The notes: a model not told the origin generated them from the letters alone. A stretch of DNA of 40,735 bases from an uncultured Flavobacteriales bacterium (GCA_950073045.1 CATMQD010000006.1:1-40735); one strand, 5' to 3'; positions 17,660-35,019 are shown, counted from the first letter of the stretch. Translations and numbers: made by a program.

Positions 17660-19618
17660 TTAGTTCAGAATTAGATTTCCAGTATTTCGGTATCCTGAAT
17701 TGTCCTTGTACCAATCTTCATAATTGCTGCCACTGCTTTGGGCCCAAGTATTAAAGTAGTTGTAGGCAGTGTTTATAGCTTTATTTTCTTCAGGATAACG
17801 GAACTCATGAATGATATTAATGGCCCAAGGCAAATTATTATCATTACGATAATAAATACCTGTAGCTGGGTTTGTAGCATCATGTACGGTATTAAAGTAA
17901 CTAGCATCTGCTAAATCCGTGGGTTCCATATCTGCCAAGTGTACTTCTCGGCCACGAACACCATCTACAATCATAAAAGGATTAAAAGGTGCAGAACCAA
18001 TTAAACTTGGATCAATAGGATTTGTAAAATTGATCACCACCGTAATTTCTTCACCAACGGAGATTGGTTGACCTCTTTCGGTATTTATATAAAGTCCCGT
18101 TCCTAAACGAGGAATATTATCGTAGGCATCATCAAACACAATTACGGTAGCGCCATCATTATGGTTCGCTTCTAAGCCTTTAGCATCTAAGCTGATGTAG
18201 TTTTCAGTTAGATTATATCCACTAACCGAACTAATTAAATTGGGATCGATATCCATTTTAAAGCCTAATCCATTGCGGAAGGAAGCACCAATCGCTTTAA
18301 CCCGAAACTTAGCTTCCAAACGCACTACTTGATTATTAGCATTGGCTATTTGGGTAAAACGGTAATTAACTACTAAATCGTTAAAATCATAATCTCCTTG
18401 TGAGGGCCATAAGTCCTCAAAAGCTAAAGACCCCCAACCAATATCAGAAGGAGTGTAAGTAGCCTCCGCCGCATTCGGGTCATTGGGGAAGTCGTCTAAA
18501 GCATCAATAACTCCGTCGTTGTCAGTGTCAACATTTTCCAAGTCCTCCACGGCACATTTATAAGAGCCTAGGTCGTTAATTTTATGAGGATAAGTGTTTA
18601 CCACGGACCAGGCACCATCGTACTTATCCATTTCAATAAGTTGAGAATTTGCATCATTGGTGGCTAAGTACAAACGATCATTTCGATCGATCGCCATGGA
18701 AGTGGGTTGAAAAGGAAGGTTCTCGGCACTGATTCGTGTAGCATTGGCCACATTTCCAGAAATATCTATTCGATATAAACCAGAGAAACAACACATGTAA
18801 ATAGTAGAGTCTTGAGAAATAGCCACATCACCACCACCAACGGGAGACTCAAGTCCAGAAATACTAAAGGTATTTACTACTTGATTTGTAAGAGGGTTTA
18901 AGGTGTACATCACCTCATTTTTTGCGATATATAATAAGCCATCTACTGGATTATACTCCATTCGAGGATAACTTCCATTAAAAGGATTACCATTTTGAGC
19001 TACGTGAAAAGTTTGGTTCGCATAGTCGTAATAGCGTAAGGTGTTATTTGTATTGTAATATACCTTCTCATTTTCTTGATCTACCGCGCATGCAATTGAA
19101 CCACCACCAACTAAATCTGGCAAAGGTGTGGCAGTGTAATTTCCGCTTTCTACGTCAATAGTGTAAAAACCGCCTTGACCATTAACCGCATATAAAGTTT
19201 CGGAACAACCATTGGACTTTCCTCTTTTATTATAAGTAATAGAAGCGCTGTTGCCAGAGATATTTATAAACTCAGAGCTAATTGCCCCATTGGCATTACG
19301 CACTACTTTTACTCGATCGCAAAAAGTAGGTAGTGTTAACACTGCCTGACTGCTATTCCCCTGAGCTAGAAAGCTTGCTACCTTTTCTTCATTTTGACCG
19401 TCGAAAGAAGCAAATACAGTGTACTTTACACGATAGGTCTCCGTGTCAGTAATGTTTAAGGTAATTTGTTCTTCGGTACGAAAATCAAAATCAGGGCTTA
19501 CCTGCAGGTCTTCAATTGACACACTAGGGTCTATACTGTTACTAGCATTAGGGTCCTCATCTTTTTTACAGGCGGCAAGAATGAGCAAGGAGAGTAATAG
19601 TAAATGAATACGTTTCAT
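17660..19618 (-). CDS. LruC-domain lipoprotein with propeller-like region
   Basis: A 652-residue lipoprotein; MKRIHLLLLSLLILAAC gives lipobox ILAAC (Cys17). Residues about 140-355 form repeated strand motifs (LYAVNGQGGFYTIDV, RMEYNPVDGLLYIA, LYRIDISG, LYLATNDANSQLIEMD) consistent with a beta-propeller. A calcium-binding type-3 motif DTDNDGVIDALDDFPND is at about 363-379. The LruC domain follows from about 391 with its diagnostic GWGSLAFEDLWPSQGDYDFN, then DLVVNYRF, and runs to the end (YNYFNTWAQSSG). LruC proteins are common in Bacteroidota and Leptospira envelopes with no settled function. It is transcribed away from the sigma-factor operon and converges with the T9SS gene. Confidence 0.9.
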   Translation of the reverse strand: MKRIHLLLLSLLILAACKKDEDPNASNSIDPSVSIEDLQVSPDFDFRTEEQITLNITDTETYRVKYTVFASFDGQNEEKVASFLAQGNSSQAVLTLPTFCDRVKVVRNANGAISSEFINISGNSASITYNKRGKSNGCSETLYAVNGQGGFYTIDVESGNYTATPLPDLVGGGSIACAVDQENEKVYYNTNNTLRYYDYANQTFHVAQNGNPFNGSYPRMEYNPVDGLLYIAKNEVMYTLNPLTNQVVNTFSISGLESPVGGGDVAISQDSTIYMCCFSGLYRIDISGNVANATRISAENLPFQPTSMAIDRNDRLYLATNDANSQLIEMDKYDGAWSVVNTYPHKINDLGSYKCAVEDLENVDTDNDGVIDALDDFPNDPNAAEATYTPSDIGWGSLAFEDLWPSQGDYDFNDLVVNYRFTQIANANNQVVRLEAKFRVKAIGASFRNGLGFKMDIDPNLISSVSGYNLTENYISLDAKGLEANHNDGATVIVFDDAYDNIPRLGTGLYINTERGQPISVGEEITVVINFTNPIDPSLIGSAPFNPFMIVDGVRGREVHLADMEPTDLADASYFNTVHDATNPATGIYYRNDNNLPWAINIIHEFRYPEENKAINTAYNYFNTWAQSSGSNYEDWYKDNSGYRNTGNLILN

Positions 19619-19765: not shown

Positions 19766-19795
19766 GGCAACCCTTTCTAAAATAAAGGGTGTCAT
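19766..19795 (+). promoter_or_regulatory. Candidate ECF-type promoter with hairpin upstream of the sigma gene
   Basis: GCAACC (19766-19771) resembles the AAC-type -35 element used by ECF sigma factors, and GTCAT (19791-19795) resembles their GTC -10 element, with 19 bases between. An inverted repeat ACCCTTT (19770-19776) / AAAGGGT (19784-19790) occupies the spacer. The -10-like element ends about 20 bases before the sigma ATG. Autoregulation is inferred. Confidence 0.4.
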
Positions 19796-19816: not shown

Positions 19817-20380
19817 ATGGGAATAGTTCGCAACCTACCAAGCTCAGAAAAACGTCTGGTGAAGCAGTGCCTTCGCGGAGACCATGAAGCGCAGCGCGAA
19901 CTTTACGACCGCTACAGCGGAGAAATGCTAAGCGTTTGCCGCAGGTACACCCAAAGTTTGGAAGATGCCGAAGAAGTTCTTTCCAATGGTTTTATAAAGA
20001 TTTTTAGTCGCCTCGATCAATATCGTGGAGAAGGAGCCCTCGGGGCTTGGATACGTCGGATTATGGTTCGGGAGGCGCTAAACTTTATTCGCTATAAAAA
20101 GAATCTCTTCGTAGAAGTTGAAGAGGAACGTCAATCGGAATTTGGTCACAGTAATGTAAAAGACCATTATGATGCAGAGCATTTACTGCGCATGATTAAC
20201 GAGCTTCCTACCGGATACCGAACGGTTTTCAACCTCTATGCCATCGAAGGTTATAATCACCGGGAAATCGGCGAAATGCTTGAGATTTCGGAGAATACCA
20301 GCAAGAGTCAACTGAGTAAAGCTCGTCGACAATTGCAACAGAAATTGAGTGAATACGAATTAATAGCAAAGAATAACTAA
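19817..20380 (+). CDS. ECF RNA polymerase sigma factor
   Basis: A 187-residue group 4 (ECF) sigma factor. Region 2 spans about residues 15-85 (LVKQCLRGDHEAQRELYDRY, DAEEVLSNGFIKIFSRLDQY), with the promoter-melting segment GALGAWIRRIMVREALNFIRY. Region 4 spans about 115-172 (INELPTGYRTVFNLYAIEGY, HREIGEMLEISENTSKSQLSKARRQL), with its recognition helix in the last part. Regions 1 and 3 are absent, as usual for ECF factors. It is the first gene of a four-gene unit; only 1 bp separates it from the anti-sigma-like gene. It should direct transcription of an envelope-related regulon, probably including this operon. Confidence 0.95.
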   Translation: MGIVRNLPSSEKRLVKQCLRGDHEAQRELYDRYSGEMLSVCRRYTQSLEDAEEVLSNGFIKIFSRLDQYRGEGALGAWIRRIMVREALNFIRYKKNLFVEVEEERQSEFGHSNVKDHYDAEHLLRMINELPTGYRTVFNLYAIEGYNHREIGEMLEISENTSKSQLSKARRQLQQKLSEYELIAKNN

Positions 20381-20381
20381 T

Positions 20382-21104
20382 ATGAGTTCCAAGCATCCTA
20401 TCGACGCGCTTTTTGAGAAGGAGCTCAAAGAGCATCAAAGCAGCCCTAATGAGGCCGTTTGGGAAAAAATTGCCGCTAATCAGCAGGGGACTAAACCCAA
20501 AAGAGAAGGAATCTTTTTCCTTCGTGCAGCATCAGTGTTACTATTGGTTGGTTTAAGTTCCTTTTGGTACCTCAACCGTCATTCTGGGGACATAGGCATT
20601 CAACCATCTAATGCGCAGCAAGAATTTGTGGCTGGGCCAGATGATAAGCCGGAAAACAATACCGACGAGCCAGAGAACACCCAAACCAAGGAACCAAAGA
20701 ATGCGAAGGCAAAAGCGTCTAAAACAGAGCCCAAGCAAAAAGTAAAAAAGGCAAACTCTAAAAAAGGAACCGCTCGAGTGATTCCAATTTTACAGCAAAA
20801 GATCTCAGATCCAGTTTTAGCTTTAAATGATTTAAATAGCATTGATTTAGAGGAAAACCTTGAGGGAGTTGAAACAATTGATGATCCAGATGTACTCAAA
20901 ATTCGGGTGAACTTATCCGATATCAAAGGGGATTATCAAACAAACCCGAAAGCCAAGAAAGATCTTCGTCAGCGGATGTGGGCCTATGCTTCCTCTCAAT
21001 ACGAAAGGGTAAAAGCAGGAGAAGGTTTGGAATTACCAAATACCGATGATGCCAAAATCGAAATTCCTTTACCAGACTTTATTAACCGTCGATTTAGTAA
21101 GTGA
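20382..21104 (+). CDS. Single-pass membrane protein, probable anti-sigma factor
   Basis: A 240-residue protein. The short cytoplasmic head (IDALFEKELKEHQSSPNEAVWEKI, split as a 'D-x-L-F... P-x-x-x-W-x-x-I' pattern) resembles the N-terminus of Bacteroidota anti-sigma-type proteins encoded after ECF factors. One transmembrane helix lies at about 46-65 (FFLRAASVLLLVGLSSFWYL). A Lys/Glu/Pro-rich periplasmic linker (about 80-130) follows, then a more ordered C-terminal part (about 160-240) with DVLKIRVNLSDI and LRQRMWAYASSQYERVK. No canonical zinc-binding HxxxCxxC motif is present. The role as sigma antagonist rests on gene order, topology and the head pattern. Its TGA shares an A with the next ATG. 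Confidence 0.8.
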   Translation: MSSKHPIDALFEKELKEHQSSPNEAVWEKIAANQQGTKPKREGIFFLRAASVLLLVGLSSFWYLNRHSGDIGIQPSNAQQEFVAGPDDKPENNTDEPENTQTKEPKNAKAKASKTEPKQKVKKANSKKGTARVIPILQQKISDPVLALNDLNSIDLEENLEGVETIDDPDVLKIRVNLSDIKGDYQTNPKAKKDLRQRMWAYASSQYERVKAGEGLELPNTDDAKIEIPLPDFINRRFSK

Positions 21105-21520
21105 TGAAATTTTTAGCAAGTCTATTACTACTCACCTCCCTTTCCTTTCAGGCGCAAGCCCAAAGCGAGGCAAGAAAAAAGGAATTAACGGAGGAACTTA
21201 AAAAGGAACTGATTGCTATTGGCGATAATATTTCAGAGCTAAGTCGACTAATGGCCGACGATTTAGAGCAGGAGCTTCAAGAGGACAGTCTTAAAGTTCG
21301 GATGAAGGAAGTGAAAAAGGCCATTAAAGAGAATCAAAGAAAAATTGTGGAGTACAGCAAAGAGCTAAGCCGCGATTATGAATTGGATGAAAATCAGAAA
21401 GAACTTTTAAAAGAAGGCGCCCGAGCATTTGGTGAAAGTATGCGCCTATTCGGGGAAGCGATGTCGCTTATGGCTCGTGACCTTAGCCAAATGATTGAAG
21501 AAAAGATAAATGAAGAATAA
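21104..21520 (+). CDS. Small secreted alpha-helical protein of the sigma operon
   Basis: A 138-residue protein. I chose the ATG at 21104 (TGATG overlap with the anti-sigma gene) over a GTG one codon earlier. MKFLASLLLLTSLSFQAQAQ is a signal peptide. The mature protein is almost entirely charged, helical and coiled-coil-like, with two helical blocks (about 22-90 and 95-138). The second block holds LDENQKELLKEGA and FGESMRLFGEAM (109-120), which line up with a segment of the next gene product. No enzyme motif is visible. The expected location is the periplasm. It may act as a sensor or adaptor for the sigma system, which is inference. Confidence 0.8.
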   Translation: MKFLASLLLLTSLSFQAQAQSEARKKELTEELKKELIAIGDNISELSRLMADDLEQELQEDSLKVRMKEVKKAIKENQRKIVEYSKELSRDYELDENQKELLKEGARAFGESMRLFGEAMSLMARDLSQMIEEKINEE

Positions 21521-21557
21521 ACCATCAAACAAAATGAAGCAACGAATTAAAACAAAC

Positions 21558-22859
21558 ATGAAAATGAAAAAGTCAATTTTAGCAGCCCTGTTGGTGGCTT
21601 TTGGTTTCGGCCTTTCGGCTCAAACTGATACCAACGCCCGCAAGAAAATCGAGATTCAAATCGAAGAAAATACCCTAGAATTTAAGGCTCCCAAAGATGC
21701 TAATATGTCAAGCATGATTGGTTTTGCCACTACTCAGGTAACTCGATTACAAGCAAACCATGAGCGTATTCTTCGTCGTATCGACGAGCAAGAAAAGGCC
21801 GGTAACCTTAGTGAAGAAGAAGCAGATGTTCTCCGTGATCAGGCCAATGAAAGCTTCGAGGCTAGCATGGAGCGTTTTGAAGACTTAATGGAAAACTGGG
21901 GCGAATCTTATGCCGAGCGCATGGAAGCTTGGGCTGAAGAGTATGAAGCTGGAATGGAAGCTTGGAGCGAAGAAATGGAGCGCTCTATGGAAGCCGATTC
22001 TGCCCAAATGGGAAAAGCACCTATGATTCCACCAATGCCCCCTCTACCACCAATGCCAGAAGCCATCCAAGACTCCGGTAAAAAGAAAATTATTATTTCT
22101 AAAGATGGAGTAATCATCGGCGATCAAGAAATTGAAATTGAGCGTGAGGAGGAAGAAGAGGATTTAGATATCGATGCCAGTGAATTATTCGAGCGTTTAG
22201 GAAAGCGCAAGTCCACTAGTATTAAGCGTACCGAAGATTATTTTGACATTGCCTTTGGTTTTAACCAGCAATTAGAAGATGGTCAATATTTGATTGAAGG
22301 TGGATCAGGAGAACTTGATTTTTGGAAATCTACCTCATTTAATATGGGTATTGGCTACAAAACTCGCATTGGTAGCCCTTACAGCAAGTTCTACATTAAG
22401 TATGGTATCGACTTCTCTTGGCATAACTTCCGTTTAAACGGATCGGATGTATTAGACGTGAATGCGGACAGTTCTTACTTCACTAGCATTGGTGTTTCTA
22501 ATGTGTATGAAAAGAACAAGTACCACATTGCCTACTTTAATGTTCCATTAATGTTGCAGTTTGATTTCAGCGAAGCTGGAGATCGTGATGAGGCCTTTAC
22601 AATTGGTGTAGGTGGTTATGGCGGAGTTCGCCTGATGGCTAAGCGTGAATTAGAGTATAGCACCCCTGTTTATCGTAAGGTAGAGGAAAAGGCTTACGAT
22701 GACTTCTTCACCAACCAGTTCCGTTATGGATTAATGGCTCAAGTAGGATACAAATCCTTTAAGGTAACCGCGTCTTACGATATGAATGAGTTTTTCCGCG
22801 ACAACAAAGGTCCCGGTGCTTATAATATGATGAACGTAACGCTAGGCTTTAGCCTTTAA
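21558..22859 (+). CDS. Helical-stalk outer-membrane beta-barrel protein of the sigma operon
   Basis: A 433-residue protein from the ATG at 21558, where MKMKKSILAALLVAFGFGLSAQ is a clean signal peptide; in-frame ATGs at 21510 and 21534 would add a poor leader and the first overlaps the previous gene. Residues about 50-150 are a charged helical region containing FEASMERFEDLM (100-111) and three 11-residue repeats (ERMEAWAEEYE, AGMEAWSEEME, RSMEADSAQMG). A Met/Pro run (MIPPMPPLPPMP) and a short beta segment with a Glu-rich tract follow. From about 220 on, alternating aromatic strands (FDIAFGFNQQLEDG, FNMGIGYKTRIG, FTIGVGGYGGVRL, FRYGLMAQVGYKSFKVTASY, NVTLGFSL) indicate a small outer-membrane barrel ending in a hydrophobic last strand. 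No enzyme motif is seen. Confidence 0.85.
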   Translation: MKMKKSILAALLVAFGFGLSAQTDTNARKKIEIQIEENTLEFKAPKDANMSSMIGFATTQVTRLQANHERILRRIDEQEKAGNLSEEEADVLRDQANESFEASMERFEDLMENWGESYAERMEAWAEEYEAGMEAWSEEMERSMEADSAQMGKAPMIPPMPPLPPMPEAIQDSGKKKIIISKDGVIIGDQEIEIEREEEEEDLDIDASELFERLGKRKSTSIKRTEDYFDIAFGFNQQLEDGQYLIEGGSGELDFWKSTSFNMGIGYKTRIGSPYSKFYIKYGIDFSWHNFRLNGSDVLDVNADSSYFTSIGVSNVYEKNKYHIAYFNVPLMLQFDFSEAGDRDEAFTIGVGGYGGVRLMAKRELEYSTPVYRKVEEKAYDDFFTNQFRYGLMAQVGYKSFKVTASYDMNEFFRDNKGPGAYNMMNVTLGFSL

Positions 22860-22867
22860 GCAAACAC

Positions 22868-22924
22868 TTACCCGAATCGTGTGCCGGGTAATTTATAGAA
22901 AGCGACTCTGGAGGGGGTCGCTTT
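22868..22924 (+). terminator. Double hairpin terminator of the sigma operon
   Basis: Two hairpins follow the barrel gene: TTACCCG/CGGGTAA (22868-22874 and 22885-22891), then AAAGCGAC/GTCGCTTT (22899-22906 and 22917-22924) followed by a T-run to 22928. The second has the form of an intrinsic terminator. Confidence 0.85.
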
Positions 22925-22939
22925 TTTTATTTTTGAAAG

Positions 22940-23633: not shown

Positions 23634-24776
23634 TTAATCATCATAGCTGATAACCACTTTTTCACTGCGAGGATGACACTGACAGGTAAGTACATAACCG
23701 TCTTCCACCTCGTCGTCCTCGAGGGCATAATTCATTTCCATTTCCACCTCGCCTTCAAGCACCTTGGCGCGACAAGTACAGCAAACCGCTCCTTTACAGG
23801 CATAGGGCACATCGGCGCCAGCGTCGAGGGCGGCATCTAAAATGCAATCGCCATCACTATCTAAGCCAAAATGGGTTTCATCGCCATCCAGAATAACCGT
23901 AACCTGCGAATCGATTTTCTTGGTGCTTTCTTTCCCAACTTTAGTTTTCCCAGCAATGCTTTGTGCAGGAGAGGTGAAAAGCTCATAATGGATGAGGTCT
24001 TTAGAAACGCCCATTGATTTAAGCTCTTCGCTTACACTGTTAATCATGGCCTCTGGTCCGCACAAGAAATAGCCATTCACTTCTTTAATATCAAAGAAAC
24101 GCTCAGCAAAGGTTTTACACTTATCCTGATCAATTCGGCCTTTAAGATAATCTGTACCCTGATCTTCGCGGCTAAGTACATGATGTACTTCGAGGCGATT
24201 CATGTAGCGATTTTTTAAGGCTTCAATTTGTTCCTTAAAAACTACCGACCCTGCTGTTTTATTTCCATAGAAAAGGGTGAAGGTCGAATTAGGCTCGTTT
24301 TCTAATACCGATTTTAATATGCTAAACACCGGAGTAATTCCCGAGCCTGCAGCAAAACCCACATAGTTATTACTAGCTTCTGGGTTTATTACAGCGGTAA
24401 AGTTGCCATCAGGAGTCATCACCCGCATGGTATCTCCAGCACTAAGTTCATTATTAGCCCAGGTAGAAAAACGACCGCCTTCTACTTCTTTAATCGCTAC
24501 TCGTAATTCTCCATCAAATGGACTAGAACATAAGGAGTAAGAACGGCGCACCGCCTCTCCATTTATTTTAGTCTCTAATGTTAAATATTGACCAGGAATA
24601 AACTGGTAATCCGCCGCCAAGTTTTCCGGTACTTCAAAAGCTACCGAAACACAATCACTGGTTTCGCGAATTATATCTAATACCCGTAAATCGTGAAATA
24701 CTGGGCGCGCTCCTTTCTTTTCAGGAGTGAAAAGCGAAGTCGTGTTAGATTTCGCCTTTTTGAAAAAGTTAAACAT
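23634..24776 (-). CDS. paaE: Phenylacetyl-CoA epoxidase reductase subunit PaaE
   Basis: A 380-residue flavin/iron-sulfur oxidoreductase that passes electrons from NAD(P)H to the PaaA di-iron centre. An N-terminal FAD domain has RRSYSLCSSP (flavin binding). An NAD domain has GFAAGSGITPVFSILKS and the GYFLCGPEAMI end motif. The C-terminal plant-type 2Fe-2S ferredoxin domain has CKGAVCCTC (C-x4-C-x2-C) and the fourth Cys in YVLTCQC. Order FAD-NAD-ferredoxin is the PaaE layout and the length is close to known PaaE. It is divergent from paaABCD across about 113 bp, so the reductase can be expressed from its own promoter; in Enterobacteria paaE is instead in line after paaD. Confidence 0.93.
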   Translation of the reverse strand: MFNFFKKAKSNTTSLFTPEKKGARPVFHDLRVLDIIRETSDCVSVAFEVPENLAADYQFIPGQYLTLETKINGEAVRRSYSLCSSPFDGELRVAIKEVEGGRFSTWANNELSAGDTMRVMTPDGNFTAVINPEASNNYVGFAAGSGITPVFSILKSVLENEPNSTFTLFYGNKTAGSVVFKEQIEALKNRYMNRLEVHHVLSREDQGTDYLKGRIDQDKCKTFAERFFDIKEVNGYFLCGPEAMINSVSEELKSMGVSKDLIHYELFTSPAQSIAGKTKVGKESTKKIDSQVTVILDGDETHFGLDSDGDCILDAALDAGADVPYACKGAVCCTCRAKVLEGEVEMEMNYALEDDEVEDGYVLTCQCHPRSEKVVISYDD

Positions 24777-24794
24777 AGAATCGATCTATTTCCG

Positions 24795-24826
24795 CAAAAG
24801 TACATTCTTAAGGCCTTTGGAACAAT
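24795..24826 (-). promoter_or_regulatory. Candidate paaE promoter
   Basis: Minus strand: ATTG (24826-24823) as -33, a 20-base spacer, then TACTTTTG (24802-24795) as a full TAnnTTTG -7 box, about 18 bases before the paaE ATG. Both element sequence and spacing fit the Bacteroidota housekeeping promoter. Confidence 0.6.
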
Positions 24827-24838
24827 TCCAGATAGGCC
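24812..24838. promoter_or_regulatory. Imperfect inverted repeat in the paaE/paaA divergent region, possible operator
   Basis: Nested arms GGCCT (24812-24816) / AGGCC (24834-24838) and TGGAA (24818-24822) / TTCCA (24826-24830) around CAA. It overlaps the candidate paaE -33 element and lies upstream of the paaA -7 box, as expected for a regulator acting on both genes. No regulator gene is in the window. Confidence 0.4.
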
Positions 24839-24858
24839 AATGTTTTAAATGGAGATAC

Positions 24859-24866
24859 TATCTTTG
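24859..24866 (+). promoter_or_regulatory. Candidate paaA -7 box
   Basis: TATCTTTG matches TAnnTTTG, 23 bases before the paaA ATG at 24890. No well-placed -33 element was found, which could mean activator dependence. Confidence 0.45.
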
Positions 24867-24889
24867 TGTCACTCTCAAAAAAGACGATT

Positions 24890-25846
24890 ATGACGAAAGA
24901 AATGAACCTCGAAGAACGCTTCCAGGCCTATGTGGATGGAGAGAATAAGGTAGAGCCGAAAGACTGGATGCCCGAAAAATATCGGAAAACCCTGATTCGT
25001 CAGGTTTCTCAGCACGCTCACTCTGAGGTGGTTGGGATGCTTCCAGAGGCAAACTGGATTACTCGCGCACCATCCTTACGAAGAAAAGTGGCCCTTTTAG
25101 CGAAAGTTCAAGATGAAGCTGGACACGGTCTTTATTTGTACAGCGCAGCCGAAACTTTAGGAGCAGATCGCGTCGATATGATTGACGATTTGCTTTCTGG
25201 CAAGGCCAAATACTCGAGTATTTTTAATTACCCTACTCCAACTTGGGCGGATATTGGCGCTATTGGTTGGTTAGTAGATGGCGCTGCAATCGCCAATCAG
25301 GTGATGCTGTGTCGTACCTCTTATGGTCCTTACAGCCGAGCGATGGTGAAGATTTGCAAAGAAGAAAGTTTCCATCAGCGTCAGGGATATGAGATTTTGC
25401 TCACCTTAGCTAAGGGAACTCCAGTGCAAAAACAAATGGCACAAGATGCCCTAAACCGCTGGTGGTGGCCATCTTTAATGATGTTCGGCCCTACCGATGA
25501 TAATTCACCTAACTCGGCGCAATCCATGAAATGGAAAATTAAGCGCAAGAGTAATGATGAACTTCGTCAGGAGTTTATCGATAAAACGATTCCTCAAGCC
25601 GAGTATCTGGGACTTACTGTTCCTGATCCTGATTTAAAATGGAATGAAGAGCGCGGTCATTACGACTTTGGCACCATTGATTGGGAAGAATTCTATCAGG
25701 TGATTAAAGGCAACGGCAAGTGTAATAAGCAACGTTTACGTGCCCGCCAAAAGGCTCATGCTGAAGGCGAATGGGTGCGCGAGGCCGCCAATGCTTACGC
25801 TGAAAAACAAGCCGCTCGTAAATCACAAGAAGGAAGCGCAGCATAA
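24890..25846 (+). CDS. paaA: Phenylacetyl-CoA epoxidase catalytic subunit PaaA
   Basis: The 318-residue di-iron subunit that epoxidises the ring of phenylacetyl-CoA. It matches PaaA closely: [57 protein letters not shown]. Glu46, Glu76 and His79 fall in the carboxylate-bridged iron motifs, with a second EESFHQRQG motif around residue 158. I start at ATG 24890 ([11 protein letters not shown]); a GTG 24 bases upstream lies within the -7 box and is unlikely. Length is as expected. It is followed after 37 bp by paaB and works as a complex with PaaB, PaaC and PaaE. Confidence 0.97.
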
Positions 25847-25857
25847 AAGAACCAAAC

Positions 25858-25869
25858 CGGCTTCGGCCG
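25858..25869 (+). other. Small UUCG-type hairpin between paaA and paaB
   Basis: CGGC-TTCG-GCCG forms a 4-bp stem closed by a C(UUCG)G tetraloop, 11 bases after the paaA stop. Too short to terminate on its own and without a T-tract; it may stabilise the 3' end of the paaA message. Confidence 0.35.
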
Positions 25870-25883
25870 AACCTACATAAGCT

Positions 25884-26174
25884 ATGAGTACAAAAGATAA
25901 CTGGAAGATCTGGGAGATCTTTATCCGCTCCCGCAATGGCTTAAGCCATAAACACGTGGGAAGCCTTCATGCACCAGATGCAGAAATGGCCATAAAAAAC
26001 GCCCGCGATGTGTATACCCGTCGTAGCGAAGGGGTGAGCATTTGGGCGGTTCCATCGGAGTCGATAACCGCTTCTTCACCCGATGAGTCGGAACCACTTT
26101 TTACTCCAGCCGACGACAAAGTTTATCGTCACCCTACTTTTTACGAAATCCCGGATGAGGTAGGCCACATGTAG
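25884..26174 (+). CDS. paaB: Phenylacetyl-CoA epoxidase subunit PaaB
   Basis: A 96-residue small subunit bridging PaaAC dimers. Typical PaaB sequence: WKIWEIFIRSRNGLSHKHVG, SLHAPDAEMAIKNARDVYTR, RSEGVSIWAVPSESI. The C-terminal VYRHPTFYEIPDEVGHM is also characteristic. Length matches the family. It lies between paaA and paaC in canonical order. Confidence 0.95.
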   Translation: MSTKDNWKIWEIFIRSRNGLSHKHVGSLHAPDAEMAIKNARDVYTRRSEGVSIWAVPSESITASSPDESEPLFTPADDKVYRHPTFYEIPDEVGHM

Positions 26175-26200
26175 GCCCCTGATCTTTCAAACGTATTACC

Positions 26201-26953
26201 TTGAAAGAACATTTATTAGAATATACCCTGCGCCTTGGCGATAACGCCCTCATTCTTGGTCAGAGACTAGGACAATGGTGCGGACATGGACCCATCCTTG
26301 AGCAAGATATTGCTCTTTCTAATATCGCCCTCGATCAATTAGGTCAGGCACGTATGCTTATGCAATATGCGGCCGACCAAAAAGGGGAGGGCTACACCGA
26401 AGATAAAATGGCCTTTTTCCGTGACGTTACGGAATACCATAATTGTCTTTTGGTAGAATTAGAAAATGGAGATTGGGGTCGCACTATAGTTCGCCAGTTT
26501 TTATTCGATACCTATAATTACTTCTTTTATACCGCTCTCCTTTCGTCGGCAGATGAAAGACTGAAAGAAGTAGCGCATAAGGCGATAAAAGAAGTTACCT
26601 ATCACGCACAGTGGAGTGCCGAATGGGTAATTCGTTTAGGCGATGGAACAGAAGAGAGTCACCATCGGGTGCAAGAATCCTTAGATGATCTTTGGGAATG
26701 GACCGGCGAATTATTTGATATGGATGAGGTGGACCAAGCCATGCTGGAAGCAGGTATTGGTGTAGACCTTAAGGCAATCAAAGAACAATGGGACCAAAAG
26801 GTTTCTGAGATATTAGACATCGCCACCTTAAAACGCCCCGAGGATGCTTGGCATCAAACGGGTGGCAAACAAGGGGAGCATAGCGAATACCTAGGCTATG
26901 TTTTAGCCGAAATGCAGCACCTGCCTCGGATGTACCCAGAGGCGGAGTGGTAG
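26201..26953 (+). CDS. paaC: Phenylacetyl-CoA epoxidase structural subunit PaaC
   Basis: The 250-residue structural partner of PaaA, a degenerate ferritin-like subunit. Motifs: YTLRLGDNALILGQRLGQWC, GHGPILEQDIALSNIALDQL, GQARMLMQYAA, YHAQWSAEWVIRLGDGTEES. The start is TTG at 26201 (MKEHLLEYTLRLGDN): an in-frame stop at 26180-26182 leaves no upstream ATG, and the next internal Met would remove conserved sequence. A TTG start could tune PaaC output relative to PaaA. It is 26 bp after paaB. Confidence 0.95.
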   Translation: MKEHLLEYTLRLGDNALILGQRLGQWCGHGPILEQDIALSNIALDQLGQARMLMQYAADQKGEGYTEDKMAFFRDVTEYHNCLLVELENGDWGRTIVRQFLFDTYNYFFYTALLSSADERLKEVAHKAIKEVTYHAQWSAEWVIRLGDGTEESHHRVQESLDDLWEWTGELFDMDEVDQAMLEAGIGVDLKAIKEQWDQKVSEILDIATLKRPEDAWHQTGGKQGEHSEYLGYVLAEMQHLPRMYPEAEW

Positions 26954-27022
26954 TAGGATATATAAAGTCAATCACTTTTGCGAACTTTTGCGGGTTTGCT
27001 TCTTTGTGCTTAAATCATCTTC

Positions 27023-27499
27023 ATGGATCAAATTTGGAACATACTTAAAAACGTATCCGACCCTGAGATTCCAGTACTCACTGTGGTAGATATGGGGGTG
27101 GTTCGAGAAGTTGAAGAAAAAGATGGAAAGGTATTGGTGAGTATTACCCCAACGTATTCTGGCTGTCCGGCGATGAACGAAATTGAAAGCAATATTCGTT
27201 GGGCATTAGAAGAAGCAGGGTATAATGAGGTGGAGGTGAAAACCATTCTTTCTCCACCTTGGACTACCGACTGGATGACCGATGAAGGGAAGGCTAAGTT
27301 GCAGGAATACGGAATCGCTCCACCGGAAGGTAGCTCCGCCGATAAATCGGTTCTTTTTGGCGAAGCCAAAAAAGTAATGTGTCCGCGCTGTAAATCAAGA
27401 AACACTATTATGGTTTCCCAGTTCGGATCAACAGCATGCAAGGCTTTATACAAATGCGATGATTGTAAGGAGCCTTTTGACTATTTCAAATGTTTATAA
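27023..27499 (+). CDS. paaD: Phenylacetate epoxidase maturation factor PaaD
   Basis: A 158-residue protein of the MIP18/DUF59 family, thought to help assemble or insert iron into the epoxidase. The DUF59 signature is DPEIPVLTVVDMGVV and the conserved Cys lies in TYSGCPAM. The C-terminal part has four Cys in two pairs (CPRC and CDDC) forming a zinc-ribbon-like unit, typical for PaaD. Length is normal. It is the last paa gene of this block; the next gene in line is an unrelated giant T9SS protein. Confidence 0.95.
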   Translation: MDQIWNILKNVSDPEIPVLTVVDMGVVREVEEKDGKVLVSITPTYSGCPAMNEIESNIRWALEEAGYNEVEVKTILSPPWTTDWMTDEGKAKLQEYGIAPPEGSSADKSVLFGEAKKVMCPRCKSRNTIMVSQFGSTACKALYKCDDCKEPFDYFKCL

Positions 27500-27757: not shown

Positions 27758-30700
27758 ATGAAGAAGTTATTACTAAGTCTTCTAGGCTTGGCAGCGACTG
27801 GTGTTTCCTATGGACAATGCCCTCTTACAGGTCCTGCTACTTTGCCTTACATTCAAAATTTTAACTCGGTCTCCGGCTACACACAAAATGATACTATTTT
27901 TATGTGTGAGCCATCTGCGCGCTGGGAGTTTCAATCTCCTGGTACAAATGCCGAATTCTATATGGGCCGACCGAGCTCAACTGGTGGTCCACAATCCGAT
28001 TTTCAAGGCGTATCTCTAGCTATGTCTTCGGCAGCAGATGCTGATACTGCGAATATTATTTTAACCATAGACCTTTCGAATATCACGGCAAGTGCCCCAG
28101 AGGATATTTGGTTAAACTTTTATTATGCCGATTATGCCGATGAAGTAGATGCTGCGGATCAAATTTCCGTGCGTGGATCTAACTCTGATACTTGGGTTGA
28201 CCTCATTAACTGGAGTAGTGGAGCCTCAAATGATTGGCAAATTGGGCGCTATAAATTAGACTCAATTTTTACCGCTAATGGTCAGAGTTTTAGCGCTACC
28301 ACCCAAGTTAAGTTTACGCAAAACGATAATGCTACTGTAACTGGAAATGATGGCTTTGGATTGGATCAAGTAAGCATTGAGTCTAATAATACCGCCATGC
28401 CAACTAATGTTTCCATTAGCAATGTAACAGCTACCACTGCAGATGTTAGCTGGACAGGAAGCGCACCTCATACTCAAATTGCGGTAGGAGCATTAGGTTT
28501 TTACTGGCCATCTGCTGCCACCCAAGATTTCAGTGGGGTATCTACTGGTTCTTTAACTGGTCTTAGTCCCGCAACCGAGTATCAGGTTTGGTTGCGCGAT
28601 AGCACTGCATCAGGTGATGTGAGCTTATGGAGAGGACCTTTCTCTTTTACTACTTCTTGTATTCCATATACTGCTCCGTTTTTCACAGACTTTGAATCTA
28701 CCAATGATGGTGATGTGGAGAATTGTTGGCTACAATATAACAGTTACAGCACCCTTGCTTATGCTAGGGTAGAAGCGCTTTCAAGCACCAATGCCACTCA
28801 ACCTTTAAGTGGTTCTAATGTATTGGAAATGTATGCCTACACTAGTTTTTCAGCTGGTGATACATTAGTGGCCATAAGCCCCGAGTTTGGTGATATGACT
28901 GCAGGGGATAAACAGGTTCGTTTTCATTTGGCCTCTAACGATGATGCCAACAGCCTCTATATCGCTACCATGGATAATAACACACTTAATGCATCCATTA
29001 CGATTCTTGATACAATCGACATTATAGCATCGAATACCTGGCAAGAAGTTATTTATCCATTAACAACCGCCAATGGTTATAATGGTACCGATACCTATAT
29101 TGCATTAATTCACGATCTATCAGGTGGAACCTTCGACGACATCTACATTGATGATTTTAACTATGAAGTTATTCCTGCTTGTCCAAAAGTAACTGGTGTT
29201 AGCTTTAGTAACATTGGTTTCGATAATGCGGATATGTCTTACATCCTTAATGGAGACTCTCTTCAATTAGAATGGGGTCCAGCAGGTTATACCCAAGGTA
29301 CAGGCTGTGTTGTTTCTGTTGCGAATAATGGAACGATTAATATCAACAATACCCTAGACCCCGGTTGTGCAATTGGTTTAGGCGCCTCCACTACTTATGA
29401 TGTTTATGTGAGAAATAACTGTACATCTAGTGGTGATGGCTTTTCGATTTGGAGTGGTCCATTTAGCTTTACAACTGCTTGTGCTCCTACTATGGCTCCT
29501 TTTACTGAGAATTTTGATTCTTGGGACCCAGGTACTGGAAGCACAACAGCAAATAATGATAGTATCAGTTCTTGCTGGAGCAGAGATCCAATCGCTGGCT
29601 CAGGCTCCTACCTTTGGTTAGTAGATAATAATGGAACCGGTTCAAGTAATACTGGACCTAGCACTGATAATTCGGGAAGCGGAAATTACTTATACACCGA
29701 GGCAAGTAGCGGATCAACTGGTGATATAGCATACCTATATAGCCCTTTGATTGATGTAAGCGGACTGAGCTTACCATACGTACAGTTTTATTTACATGGT
29801 ACCGGTGATGATTTAGACCGATTAGATCTTGAGTACTTAGATAATGGCACTTGGACTCCCCTTATTACTGTAATTGGCGAACAACAAGCGGCAATAGCAG
29901 ACCCATTTATGTTAATGGCAGATACCCTTGACAATCTAAGTGGAACTATTACTCAATTACGTTTTAAGGCTACCCGCGGAACTAGTTTCGAAGGAGATTG
30001 GGCAATAGATGAATTAAGCGTTATCGAAACCCCAAGCTGTACACCCAGCACCGCCTTTATGGTTGATAGCGCAACCGGTAACACTATTTATACCAGCTGG
30101 ACCGCAGGCGCGGGTACTAGTTTTATCATTAATGCAGATACTACCGGATTTACTCCAGGAATGGGAAGATATGGTGATACTGTAAGCTTAACTAATGGTG
30201 CAATTACAGGATTAATGCCATCTACTGACTATGACATTTACTTAAAAGATGTTTGTGGCGGAGGTAATGGAAGTAGCATGTGGGTTGGACCAATTAATGG
30301 CCGTACCGCTTGTCCTGCAGTTTACTCTAGTCCTGTACTATTCGATTTAGAAGACCTAAGTATTGGTAATCGCGTAGACTTTGTTAACTGTTGGTCTACT
30401 GATAAAACCAGCAATCCACGCTGGGAGGTAGAAACCGCATCAGGGAGCAATTTAAACTCTACCAATACCGGTCCCTTCTTCGACAAAACCTTAAATGGAG
30501 TAGCTGGTGGTAACTATTGGTTCTTAGAAACTTCTGGTGGCAGCTTAGGAAATGAGGCAAATTTAAACTCTCCACCTATTGATTTGTCCGGAATGACGGA
30601 GCCTAGCCTTTACTTCTGGTTCCATATGTATGGCGCCGATATGGGTAACCTACATATTGATATTGAGAACCAAGGCACTTGGTATAATGATTATTTCCTT

Positions 30701-33700
30701 ATTCAAGGTCAGCAGGATACTGCTGGTAATGATGATTGGAATCAATTGGAGCTTAACTTGGCTTCATTTGTAAACGATACAATTCGTATTCGCTTCCGTG
30801 GGGAAAGAGGAAACGGGTTTACCTCGGATATGGCTATTGACGATATCGAGATTGCCGAAGCTAGCGATTGTAACTTACCAGTTAACCTTCAAGCTACTAA
30901 CTTAACCGCTACCTCTACCGATATTACTTGGTCTTCCTATGGCGATGAATTTAATCTAGTATGGGGTCCCTCAGGGTTTTTACAAGGAACCAACACTGCT
31001 GGAGGTACTGTTATTAACAACACCACTGCACCTGTTTCTATTACTGGTTTAAACCCTAATACAGCCTACGATATCTACGTACAAGATACATGTGATGAAA
31101 GCATTTGGACTGGTCCATTAACCATTCAAACGCCATGTCTTTCTGCATTAGCTGGTGGTACTTATACCATTGGTACTAGTCCTAGCGATGACTTTGCCAC
31201 TTTTGATAGCGTTGCTACCTTATTAAATGGTTGCGGTATTAGTGGTCCAGTTATCTTTAATATCCAGCCAGGTACTTATGTAGATAATTTACACCTTCAG
31301 TTTGTACCAGGTGTAACCAGCACCAACACCATTACCTTTAACGGTACTAATGGTCAGGATAGCTTAATTTACAACGGACAATCTTATCAGAGTACCGTAC
31401 TTATCGAAGGAACCAAGTATGTTACTCTAAACGATATGACCATTGTGAATAATGGTACTTCAGAGTCCTTCGGCATCATGCTAAAGGATAATTCTGATTC
31501 TGTAACTATCAGTAATAACACCATTTTAATGGATACTACTGGTTCGGGAATCGACATCACCGCTATCCTCACGGCATCGGTTTACGATAATGACCTTAGC
31601 GAAGGTTCAGAAGTAGATTACTTGACCATTGTTGGCAATGAGATTATTGGTGCTGTTTATGGTATCAACCTCGAGGGTGATGGTACTGGCGACTTTAGTA
31701 TTGGTCATCGCATCTTAAATAACCATTTGTCAAGTCAGGTTACCTACGGTATCTACTTAGACGAATTACAGGATATTGAGATCATTGGCAATACCATCGA
31801 TAATGTGCGCGGAACAACCGACGGTATCTATGCTTTCGACTTAAACGATTTCCGAGTAGAGAATAATGCCATCTATGTAAGTGATTACGGTCTTTACATT
31901 ACTGATGGTAACGATGGTTTCGCGCCAGCAAGCCGCTCCACCCTCATCAATAATATGGTAAGCAGTACCAGTGATTATGGCATCTACTTAAACGACTTTG
32001 AGTTAGTTGAAGTTTACCATAATACGGCCTATGGATCTCCCGGTATGGCTATTAATGATCAGGATAGTGTGTGGGTAATCAATAACGTTTTCGTTTCCGA
32101 TAACGATTTTGCTTTCGAGTCATTCGATAACTTTAATGGTTCCGAAACAGTTGATTACAATGCCTACGAGTCCGGAAATAGCAATGCTTTTGATATTGGC
32201 ACTTCATCCTATGCGGATCTTGCTGCTTGGGTAGCGGGCGACCCTGCTCACAATGCAAACAGTGTAGAAGGTGACCCGGTATTTATTAGCAAGCCAGATG
32301 ATCTTCACCTTATTGGCACTTTAGCTAATGATGCTGGTGACAACAGCCTTGGAATTACTACCGATATTGATGGCGATACCCGTCCACAAGCACCTTCTAC
32401 TATTGTAGATATGGGAGCCGACGAATACACGCCTTTAGCCGATGATGCGGAAATGGTGGAAATTATTGCTGAGTTTGGTTGTGGCGATAGCGCTACTGCG
32501 GTTAGCGTGGTATTCCGAAACCTTGGTCAAAATACCATCACTAGCTTACCAATAACTGTGGATTTAACCGGTGGACTAACTACTACTTTAAATGCAACTT
32601 ATTCTGGTAGCTTAGCCTCATTGGATATGGATACTATGTTAGTAGGTACATATAATACTTACTCTGGGGTTCAAGGTATAATGATCGACGCTTCTGTAGC
32701 CTTAAGTGGTGATCAAGATTTAAGCAACGATAGCTTAAGTGTCGGTCCAATTGACTACTTACCTTACGAGCCTATTGGAATTGATAGTAGCTACTGTATC
32801 AATGACACAAGCGCTATGTTAACCGCAAATCCACTCACTGGTGTAAGCTACGAATGGTTTGCTAGTAACAACGCTAATGATACCATTCCTGTGGCTTCTG
32901 GCGACACCTTAGCAGTTGCGGCAAGTAGTGCATTAAGTACTTACTACCTTGCCTACGCATCTGCTGTAGACAGCCTCGGAACTTCCTTTGGGGGTGGTAA
33001 TGGTCAAAATGGTAATGTATTCGACATTATGCCAATTAGTAATATAGAGATTACTGGTTTTGATGTGAACCTTGATGCCACTACCGCGGAGAATGTAACG
33101 GTATTTGTTCGAGCAGGAACTGGTGTAGGAAATGAGGCTTCTTTAACCGGATGGTCTTTATTAGACAGTATGACGGTAACTGGAAACGGCGCCGGTAATG
33201 CTACACATATTCCTTTTACCACTCCATATTTAGCGCTTGCAGGTCAGACCTATAGTTTTATGGTCTTAACCACTACCGCTCAAATGGATTATACCAATGG
33301 TACCGCCGTGGGTAATGTATTGGCTCAAAACACCGACTTAGTTATTTACGAAGGTGCCGGTATTTCTTGGCCATTATCCTCTGTGTTTACACCTCGTTTC
33401 TGGAACGGACGTATTTATTATAACACTGATGCCTGTTCAGATATCCGCGTGCCCGTTAACTTAACTCTTGGCACAGATACGGCAACTGCTAGCTTTAGCA
33501 CCACGGGAACACAGCCTACCTTTAACTTCGATGCCAGTGCATCTGTTAATGCTGATGTTTACACTTGGGACTTTGGCGATGGTAATAATGGTACTGGTGT
33601 AACTACTAGTCATACTTATGCCAACAATGGTGTTTATACCGTTACCCTTACGGTAGATGATACCACCGGTTGTTCTAGCATGGCTACTGATACTACCTCA

Positions 33701-33988
33701 ATTGAAGTTACCATAGGAATCGAGGAAAACCCATTAGAGCAGTCTCTAGCGGTGTATCCTAACCCTGCTACAGATCGTGTATTAGTGGACTTTGACCTTG
33801 TGAACAGTTCTAATGCAACTATCCGTTTAATGGACGCTCAAGGGCGTGTATTAGTGGAAGTAGCAGAGAAAGCACAAGGCTCTAAATTCCACCGTACAAT
33901 TGATGTTAGTCAATTAGCTAATGGAGTTTATATGATCGAAATTGAATCTGGAGACCTGATTGCTCAGCGTCGCCTTAGCGTTCAATAG
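27758..33988 (+). CDS. Giant modular T9SS surface protein (jelly-roll/FN3 repeats, beta-helix, PKD, sorting domain)
   Basis: A 2076-residue cell-surface or secreted protein. Signal peptide MKKLLLSLLGLAATGVSYGQ. Four tandem modules of about 275 residues follow (about 20-301, 301-574, 574-851, 851-1127). Each joins a MAM/jelly-roll-like beta domain (PYIQNF or PFTENFDSW start, WAIDELSV or MAIDDIEI end) to a fibronectin type III domain (LSPATEYQVWLRD, PNTAYDIYVQD), with a Cys at each boundary (FTTSC, FTTAC, RTAC, QTPC). About 1129-1551 is a right-handed beta-helix (ISNNTI, IIGNTI, VENNAIYV, INNMVSST, ending DMGADEY). A CARDB-like domain, an Ig-like segment (YEWFAS) and a further beta domain (1742-1894) come next. 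A PKD domain (YTWDFGDGN) is at about 1910-1980 and a type A sorting domain (LAVYPNPATDRV) is last. Adhesin or polymer-binding role is inferred; no catalytic motif was recognised. Confidence 0.93.
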   Translation: MKKLLLSLLGLAATGVSYGQCPLTGPATLPYIQNFNSVSGYTQNDTIFMCEPSARWEFQSPGTNAEFYMGRPSSTGGPQSDFQGVSLAMSSAADADTANIILTIDLSNITASAPEDIWLNFYYADYADEVDAADQISVRGSNSDTWVDLINWSSGASNDWQIGRYKLDSIFTANGQSFSATTQVKFTQNDNATVTGNDGFGLDQVSIESNNTAMPTNVSISNVTATTADVSWTGSAPHTQIAVGALGFYWPSAATQDFSGVSTGSLTGLSPATEYQVWLRDSTASGDVSLWRGPFSFTTSCIPYTAPFFTDFESTNDGDVENCWLQYNSYSTLAYARVEALSSTNATQPLSGSNVLEMYAYTSFSAGDTLVAISPEFGDMTAGDKQVRFHLASNDDANSLYIATMDNNTLNASITILDTIDIIASNTWQEVIYPLTTANGYNGTDTYIALIHDLSGGTFDDIYIDDFNYEVIPACPKVTGVSFSNIGFDNADMSYILNGDSLQLEWGPAGYTQGTGCVVSVANNGTININNTLDPGCAIGLGASTTYDVYVRNNCTSSGDGFSIWSGPFSFTTACAPTMAPFTENFDSWDPGTGSTTANNDSISSCWSRDPIAGSGSYLWLVDNNGTGSSNTGPSTDNSGSGNYLYTEASSGSTGDIAYLYSPLIDVSGLSLPYVQFYLHGTGDDLDRLDLEYLDNGTWTPLITVIGEQQAAIADPFMLMADTLDNLSGTITQLRFKATRGTSFEGDWAIDELSVIETPSCTPSTAFMVDSATGNTIYTSWTAGAGTSFIINADTTGFTPGMGRYGDTVSLTNGAITGLMPSTDYDIYLKDVCGGGNGSSMWVGPINGRTACPAVYSSPVLFDLEDLSIGNRVDFVNCWSTDKTSNPRWEVETASGSNLNSTNTGPFFDKTLNGVAGGNYWFLETSGGSLGNEANLNSPPIDLSGMTEPSLYFWFHMYGADMGNLHIDIENQGTWYNDYFLIQGQQDTAGNDDWNQLELNLASFVNDTIRIRFRGERGNGFTSDMAIDDIEIAEASDCNLPVNLQATNLTATSTDITWSSYGDEFNLVWGPSGFLQGTNTAGGTVINNTTAPVSITGLNPNTAYDIYVQDTCDESIWTGPLTIQTPCLSALAGGTYTIGTSPSDDFATFDSVATLLNGCGISGPVIFNIQPGTYVDNLHLQFVPGVTSTNTITFNGTNGQDSLIYNGQSYQSTVLIEGTKYVTLNDMTIVNNGTSESFGIMLKDNSDSVTISNNTILMDTTGSGIDITAILTASVYDNDLSEGSEVDYLTIVGNEIIGAVYGINLEGDGTGDFSIGHRILNNHLSSQVTYGIYLDELQDIEIIGNTIDNVRGTTDGIYAFDLNDFRVENNAIYVSDYGLYITDGNDGFAPASRSTLINNMVSSTSDYGIYLNDFELVEVYHNTAYGSPGMAINDQDSVWVINNVFVSDNDFAFESFDNFNGSETVDYNAYESGNSNAFDIGTSSYADLAAWVAGDPAHNANSVEGDPVFISKPDDLHLIGTLANDAGDNSLGITTDIDGDTRPQAPSTIVDMGADEYTPLADDAEMVEIIAEFGCGDSATAVSVVFRNLGQNTITSLPITVDLTGGLTTTLNATYSGSLASLDMDTMLVGTYNTYSGVQGIMIDASVALSGDQDLSNDSLSVGPIDYLPYEPIGIDSSYCINDTSAMLTANPLTGVSYEWFASNNANDTIPVASGDTLAVAASSALSTYYLAYASAVDSLGTSFGGGNGQNGNVFDIMPISNIEITGFDVNLDATTAENVTVFVRAGTGVGNEASLTGWSLLDSMTVTGNGAGNATHIPFTTPYLALAGQTYSFMVLTTTAQMDYTNGTAVGNVLAQNTDLVIYEGAGISWPLSSVFTPRFWNGRIYYNTDACSDIRVPVNLTLGTDTATASFSTTGTQPTFNFDASASVNADVYTWDFGDGNNGTGVTTSHTYANNGVYTVTLTVDDTTGCSSMATDTTSIEVTIGIEENPLEQSLAVYPNPATDRVLVDFDLVNSSNATIRLMDAQGRVLVEVAEKAQGSKFHRTIDVSQLANGVYMIEIESGDLIAQRRLSVQ

Positions 33989-34113: not shown

Positions 34114-35019
34114 ATGAACCGACTTATACCCTTATTGCTCTTTAGTTTGGGCCTCAGTGCCCAAAGTTTTGTGAGCTTCCCCGATTCTAATGCCCGCTGG
34201 ATTAACAGCTATTCTATTTTAAACACCAGCGGCCAGTTTTATTATTACGACTTAGCTCATACCCTTAAATTTTGCCTTTCGGCAGAAGACACCCTTATAA
34301 ACAATAGAAGCTACTCTAAGATTAGCTATTGTGGAGTGAGCACCGCTTATTTTGGCGCTATTCGCGATACTGCTGGACAAGTCTTCGTGGTACCTGCAGA
34401 TAGCTCGGAAGCTATTCTATTGTATGATTTCAATCTTTTACCGGGTGATACCCTGAGGAATATTTACTCCCTAGGTTTTGGTAATTACTGGCCTGGAGCG
34501 ATCCCAAGATTCGAGTATTTGGGCGACACCATAAACCCATTAATTGTGCAGCATGTAGATACGGTCTACACTTCACGCGGTCTACAGCGAATTGTTTATC
34601 CCGGCACTAGCGGAGGTCCATGGATTGAAGGCGTGGGCAATTCACAAGGACTCTTTTGGGATCCATTTGCTAATATCTCTAACTTTCAAATAAAGCTGGA
34701 ATGTATGAGCATTGGCGATTCAATTTATTACGATGGACACATTTACCCTCCCAGTTCTGCGCTTGCTGGTCCCTGCGATCTTAGCCTAGATCAGCAAACA
34801 GAAGAAGATCCGACCCTTAACCTTTATCCAAATCCATCAAAAGGACATCTAAACCTTAACAATCAAGAGCCAGGTACTCTAAAGGTTTATCACCTTAATG
34901 GAGCCTTGATTGAAAGTCATGATATAGATGTCAAGGCCCATTTAAACTTAAAGCACCTTGCCAAAGGTCTATATGTGCTCGAATTCGGCAATACCCGATT
35001 CCGATGGTTAAAAATCTAG
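34114..35019 (+). CDS. Small T9SS-secreted protein of unknown function
   Basis: A 301-residue protein. Signal peptide MNRLIPLLLFSLGLSAQ. The body (about 20-220) has the look of the short 'hypothetical plus sorting domain' proteins frequent in flavobacteria: WINSYS, SKISYCG, GAIRDTAGQVFVVPADSSEA, LYDFNLLPGDTL, RIVYPGTSGGPWIEGVGNSQ. The GTSGGPW sequence recalls a serine-protease oxyanion loop but no His/Asp partners in a trypsin-like frame are apparent, so I do not call it a protease. The last about 75 residues are a type A sorting domain (LNLYPNPSKGHL, VYHLNGALI, LAKGLYVLEF). It converges with the propeller lipoprotein genes across only 19 bp. Confidence 0.88.
   Translation: MNRLIPLLLFSLGLSAQSFVSFPDSNARWINSYSILNTSGQFYYYDLAHTLKFCLSAEDTLINNRSYSKISYCGVSTAYFGAIRDTAGQVFVVPADSSEAILLYDFNLLPGDTLRNIYSLGFGNYWPGAIPRFEYLGDTINPLIVQHVDTVYTSRGLQRIVYPGTSGGPWIEGVGNSQGLFWDPFANISNFQIKLECMSIGDSIYYDGHIYPPSSALAGPCDLSLDQQTEEDPTLNLYPNPSKGHLNLNNQEPGTLKVYHLNGALIESHDIDVKAHLNLKHLAKGLYVLEFGNTRFRWLKI

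Follow-up and report, generated by a model that had tools for sequence, protein, structure and literature searches.

We document a four-gene operon on the plus strand of the window analyzed here (the whole 40,735-nucleotide stretch of DNA from an uncultured Flavobacteriales bacterium), encoding, in order, an ECF sigma factor, a single-pass anti-sigma-like protein, a small secreted helical protein, and an outer-membrane barrel protein. The operon follows a conserved promoter motif, belongs to a sigma/anti-sigma/barrel triad that recurs across the class Bacteroidia, and encodes a small protein homologous to the helical hairpin of the neighboring barrel. We suggest that it could be an autoregulated, envelope-sensing operon in which the anti-sigma and barrel proteins would form a two-chain bridge, with the soluble copy of the hairpin acting as a tuner, a reading to which we give an even chance of being correct. 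The features on which the argument draws are as follows.

19767..19795, plus strand: putative ECF promoter, GCAACC-N17-TGTCAT, ending about 21 nt 5´ of the sigma ATG
19817..20380, plus strand: ECF sigma factor, 187 aa (Pfam, NCBIfam, and structure matches)
20382..21104, plus strand: anti-sigma-like protein, 240 aa (alignment of 22 orthologs; position and topology)
21104..21520, plus strand: small secreted helical protein, 138 aa (TGATG overlap; helices; profile match to the barrel stalk)
21558..22859, plus strand: outer-membrane barrel protein of the 8-stranded type with an N-terminal helical hairpin, 433 aa (PF13568, AF2, Foldseek)
21705..21995, plus strand: barrel stalk, a helical hairpin of residues 50-146 with its turn at G82 (AF2 helices; G82 conservation)
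22020..22058, plus strand: Pro-rich linker PMIPPMPPLPPMP from stalk to barrel (sequence)
22897..22926, plus strand: intrinsic terminator with a 13-pair stem and T tail, closing the operon

Sigma factor, anti-sigma-like protein, and promoter

The tight packing described in the original prediction was borne out in both coordinates and sequence, with a 1-bp gap, a TGATG overlap, and a 37-bp gap ahead of the ATG at 21558. The product of the first gene consists of sigma regions 2 and 4 only (Pfam Sigma70_r2, 1.7e-13, and Sigma70_r4_2, 4.9e-16). It matches TIGR02937 at 1.1e-27, scores under the TIGR02985 cut-off, matches the structure of E. coli SigE at 2.7e-13, and is similar to CnrH at E 2.6e-5. 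The next gene encodes a single-pass membrane protein, the arrangement by which an ECF factor and its membrane anti-sigma are recognized.

An alignment of 22 orthologs divides this second protein into a cytoplasmic part (~1-43), a transmembrane segment (~44-64), a disordered-looking periplasmic tether rich in Lys, Pro, and Glu, and a conserved C-terminal tail (~190-240). It has no Pfam family, and none of the 22 proteins carries a FecR domain. Position and topology point to an anti-sigma role, and in the triads described below the gene always sits between the sigma and barrel genes. The absence of a TonB receptor, remarked on earlier, also holds, as none is encoded in the operon.

AAC in the -35 element and GTC in the -10 element are typical of ECF promoters generally. 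The pattern GCAAC-N17-19-[TCA]GTC[AT] was present 5´ of the sigma gene in 35 of the 59 loci where that gene is a close ortholog, compared to a mean of 0.14 and a maximum of 1 in shuffled sequences, and in none of the 37 loci with a distant sigma factor. With an ECF-type promoter conserved ahead of the sigma gene, the natural reading is that the operon would be autoregulated. A CGT-box -10 motif of Flavobacterium psychrophilum has been assigned to ECF factors, including a sigma/anti-sigma pair (PMC9723704).

The strict motif has a single match in the genome of the window, the promoter of the sigma operon itself. A relaxed form, GCAACN-N16,17-TGTCA, was near background (0-3 control matches per strand and genome) and gave few extra candidates, of which two recurred: a gene for a secreted protein of ~140 aa (four genomes) and a quinone-oxidoreductase-like gene (three genomes). 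For the latter, GCAAC-N17/18-TGTCA lies 21-26 nt 5´ of the start in three genomes of the genus, making this gene a candidate for a second target.

Divergent from the operon, a gene at 17660-19618 (minus strand) encodes a DUF4842 protein with a lipoprotein-like signal, and an ORF of similar size occupies its place in two close relatives. Just 3´ of the operon, at 23634-27499, are phenylacetate degradation genes, namely a PaaE-like reductase gene on the minus strand followed by two PaaA/PaaC-family genes and paaD on the plus strand, with a 96-aa ORF (25884-26174) between the two PaaA/PaaC-family genes. Farther on, a 2076-aa ORF with an N-terminal signal peptide (27758-33988) adjoins a gene (34114-35019) whose product has a T9SS sorting tail.

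The barrel stalk and its soluble relative

The barrel protein belongs to PF13568 (E 2e-7; 31.7 bits against a Pfam cut-off of 27), as do most of its relatives, 34 of 40 of which match at E 1e-3 or better. The AF2 model has a pLDDT of 90+ across most of the barrel, and Foldseek matched it to OmpA (1.2e-6) as well as to Ail and OmpX. Ahead of the barrel, the model places helices at residues 50-80 and 86-146, followed by the Pro-rich linker. G82 is near-invariant among 40 barrels, and the turn G-x-[LI]-[ST]-x-E is common to hairpins across the Flavobacteriales sampled. The hairpin is expected to be periplasmic, as it stands N-terminal to strand 1 of an OmpA-type fold.

The small protein was modeled with moderate confidence (mean pLDDT 64) as helices 5-57, 61-91, and 96-137, the final two of which are the counterpart of the barrel hairpin. 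Foldseek found only generic three-helix bundles for it (best E 0.06), and searches of the small and anti-sigma proteins against Pfam and NCBIfam returned only coiled-coil or low-complexity noise. The original prediction had drawn attention to LDENQKELLKEGA followed by FGESMRLFGEAM in the small protein and to LSEEEADVLRDQA followed by FEASMERFEDLM in the barrel protein, and proposed that the two line up with one short gap. All of these segments are present in the window proteins, and profile-profile alignment reproduces the pairing with a single-residue gap.

How far this likeness exceeds what any two amphipathic helices would share is the critical question. BLASTP found no match between the two window proteins. 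When six small proteins from the genus of the window were compared by hhalign with the hairpin of 18 barrels, the probability was 81% and the score 35.0, against maxima of 20.6 for 150 shuffles that preserve heptad phase and 17.3 for 100 plain shuffles, and 13.1 for the reversed sequence. With query and template swapped, the score falls to 25.7 (25%), near the 25.5 reached by OmpH/Skp, a natural helical control taken from the same genomes. For the small proteins that occupy this operon position in four sister genera, the match to the hairpin had a probability of 98% and an E of 1.5e-14, with E ~1e-14 in both query/template directions and a maximum of 22.2 for heptad-preserving shuffles; the window-genus and sister-genus small proteins in turn matched each other at 88% (heptad-preserving shuffles, maximum 15.9). 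Because the evidence from the window pair has these caveats, our case for homology is built on the sister-genus proteins, the shared synteny, and the specificity of the matches.

With respect to specificity, the top non-self match of the small-protein profile in the genome of the window was the barrel hairpin (1.4e-10; the next, 1e-3), while with the window-genus profile alone the whole-genome scan gave the barrel only E 0.005. Across 196 genomes of the order, all matches at or below 1e-6 were operon small proteins or barrel hairpins. In the PDB, the profile matched apolipoproteins, including ApoA-IV (E 6.8e-7; 32.9 bits, compared to 34-43 bits for the hairpins), and a profile of the stalk matched nothing better than 0.033. 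In one genus the barrel stalks read ERMERFGESMEAWGE, near the RAFGESMRLFGEAM of the window small protein, and Pro-rich tails like the PMIPPMPPLPPMP linker end several sister-genus small proteins. At the level of sequence, homology between the small protein and the barrel hairpin beyond a generic coiled coil was confirmed, so the generic outcome that was to count against the original prediction did not arise. As candidates for the identity of the small protein, a Spy/CpxP chaperone and a CnrX-type metal sensor were rejected, with LTXXQ (PF07813) detected in none of 13 members and Metal_resist (PF13801) in 0 of 13.

All operons bearing the small gene belong to a single clade of the barrel tree (support 99/100), within which three members (G004, G015, and G059) lack the gene, indicating that it is dispensable. 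With this distribution, one gain and a few losses are enough. The stalks and the small proteins lie on opposite sides of one branch (96/61), and every small-bearing operon that is not truncated at the edge of a contig contains the sigma/anti-sigma/barrel core. Most simply, the 5´ portion of the barrel gene would have been duplicated once, with later losses; the copy would have kept a signal peptide and a hairpin, together with a Pro-rich tail in several genera, and would then have changed faster.

Reach of the core and proposed mechanism

Of 295 genomes sampled from the class Bacteroidia, 162 encode relatives of the barrel. An ECF sigma gene lies upstream, on the same strand and within 2.5 kb, in 96 of the 127 barrel loci examined, and the sigma/anti-sigma/barrel order recurs in many families, with many such operons lacking the small gene. 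Conservation of synteny beyond close relatives, on which the original prediction had staked part of its case, thus holds for the core but not for the small gene, which is limited to one clade of one family; its pairing of a sigma/anti-sigma system with a barrel and a secreted protein that share a homologous helical part is supported, and its interpretation as a whole, in which the two hairpins may compete for or pair through one interface and the barrel may signal to the anti-sigma protein, partly so.

The barrel itself is constant, while the domain at its N-terminus varies between a hairpin, a short acidic linker, and DUF2807 (E down to 3.5e-44). Such exchange of a periplasmic domain would be expected if each lineage had its own partner for it. 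Sigma factors are more distant in operons of the DUF2807 type (E ~1e-9 to 1e-15). At four loci, a DUF2807 (head GIN) domain stands at the N-terminus of a PF13568 barrel; because an ECF sigma gene precedes two of these barrels (L100 and L245), the domain may serve as a module for periplasmic signaling or anchoring. At one further locus (L230, 3415-4494), a single ORF runs from the front part of an ECF sigma protein straight into the barrel with no anti-sigma gene between; this looks like a deletion or an assembly join, a true fusion also being conceivable.

In the mechanism we favor, the single-pass protein would anchor the sigma factor to the inner membrane and reach across the periplasm with its disordered tether and conserved tail. 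The barrel would be the outer-membrane counterpart, its hairpin facing the periplasm, and we infer that the anti-sigma tail contacts the hairpin or the barrel. If correctly assembled barrel were damaged or missing, tail contact would be altered and the sigma factor freed. The soluble hairpin copy could occupy the same partner without a barrel and compete, setting a threshold or giving feedback; it is in this way that the paralog probably tunes the sensor. We favor contact between tail and hairpin because the tail is conserved, the periplasmic domain is exchangeable, and the hairpin has been duplicated. Three observations count against a bridge: no sigma gene was detectable in 31 of the 127 barrel loci, though a few of these are at contig ends; no fusion of an anti-sigma protein to a barrel of this family was found among the 127; and the small gene is dispensable. 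The barrel proteins of the window and its relatives come from their own gene, with a signal peptide at the start. More tentatively, the two-chain bridge between tail and hairpin could operate throughout Bacteroidia with swappable periplasmic modules, and one flavobacterial lineage would have added a soluble competitor that adjusts the set-point, a generalization that is possible but rather doubtful.

The main rival to the bridge is that the barrel and the small protein are outputs of the system, an OmpA/OmpX-like barrel and a Spy-like chaperone that stabilize the envelope, with a conventional anti-sigma protein sensing envelope trouble in some other way and the hairpins serving as chaperone or membrane-binding helices. 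This is possible, if rather doubtful. The near confinement of the strict promoter motif to the apparently autoregulated operon would make its own products the main output, the small family does resemble amphipathic helices of the apolipoprotein type, and an ECF/anti-sigma pair followed by a Spy chaperone gene, CirYZ, is known from Phocaeicola (PMC13114119). However, the small protein has no Spy/LTXXQ or Metal_resist match, and outputs alone leave unexplained both the class-wide locking of the barrel to a sigma/anti-sigma pair with a swapped periplasmic domain and the duplication of a barrel domain beside the anti-sigma gene.

Convergence offers a different account of the hairpin itself, in which the similarity reflects amphipathic heptads rich in Met, Trp, and Glu, and the small gene arose independently. 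The missing BLASTP match, the ApoA-IV match, the fall of the window-genus profile to the level of OmpH when swapped, and its weak barrel match in the genome scan speak for this account. It is unlikely and largely disfavored, given the sister-genus match in both directions far above heptad-preserving shuffles, non-self matches in 196 genomes only to hairpins of the same barrel family, the stalk profile with no PDB match below 0.033, the shared hairpin turn, the Pro-rich tails, the adjacency of the genes, and their restriction to one clade. A still more remote alternative, to which we assign very little probability, makes the small protein a CnrX-like periplasmic sensor of a ligand such as a metal, reporting to the anti-sigma protein, with the barrel a co-regulated porin. 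The gene set does follow the outline of CnrYXH, the helices are Met-rich, and the sigma factor resembles CnrH, but Metal_resist is absent from all 13 members, and a gene missing from most operons of the class cannot encode the core sensor.

Relation to known ECF systems

The closest parallels to the proposed bridge are the envelope-spanning anti-sigma factors Dma1/Dma2 and Reo, with Das1/Das2 and EcfO, of Bacteroides and Phocaeicola, in which an ECF gene likewise lies beside that of an anti-sigma protein with a transmembrane segment and disordered tether. Dma2 consists of an N-terminal sigma-binding domain, a transmembrane segment, a disordered tether, and a barrel, and regulates mainly its own operon together with some PULs (PMC13088901). 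Reo has the same architecture and is regarded as a sensor of outer-membrane stress (PMC9308784, PMC13114119). As in the window, an outer-membrane barrel is part of the same unit, and the chiefly own-operon regulation of Dma2 is a further likeness. Dma and Reo are single chains, whereas the window anti-sigma and barrel proteins are two chains from separate genes; the window system also has a hairpin (elsewhere DUF2807) on the periplasmic side of its barrel and an extra soluble paralog of that hairpin. By analogy, the operon is probably a split functional relative of Dma/Reo that works as they do, and we stop short of calling it a member because it lacks the one-chain feature and the barrels are likened by description only. 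In the literature searched, a partial coverage, no account of Dma/Reo-type operons with a barrel gene of their own was found.

Other systems share parts of this plan. CnrYXH of Cupriavidus combines an ECF factor, a short membrane anti-sigma protein, and a helical periplasmic protein in one operon; the window has the same set but lacks Metal_resist and has an outer-membrane barrel in its conserved core. In CirY/CirZ with Spy of Phocaeicola vulgatus, too, a small helical protein of the periplasm comes after an ECF/anti-sigma pair, though no barrel is reported in the available text of the source, and the window small protein lacks the Spy/LTXXQ signature and is homologous to a barrel hairpin. In FecI/FecR/TonB-receptor and SusC/D-type ECF signaling, a periplasmic domain of an outer-membrane protein is likewise thought to signal to the anti-sigma protein, but the window operon has neither a TonB-dependent receptor nor FecR, its sigma factor scores below the TIGR02985 cut-off, and its small OmpA-type barrel takes the place of a 22-stranded receptor. 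The PF13568-DUF2807 (head GIN) barrels of Bacteroidia are of the same barrel family and partly share the sigma/anti-sigma/barrel order, but have DUF2807 in place of the hairpin and more distant sigma and anti-sigma proteins. The known examples of outer-membrane sensing in Bacteroidota, Dma and Reo, are single envelope-spanning proteins. If the bridge is real, it would be a class-wide, two-gene form with exchangeable domains and a natural soluble half, such that the contact could be tested by adding or removing that half.
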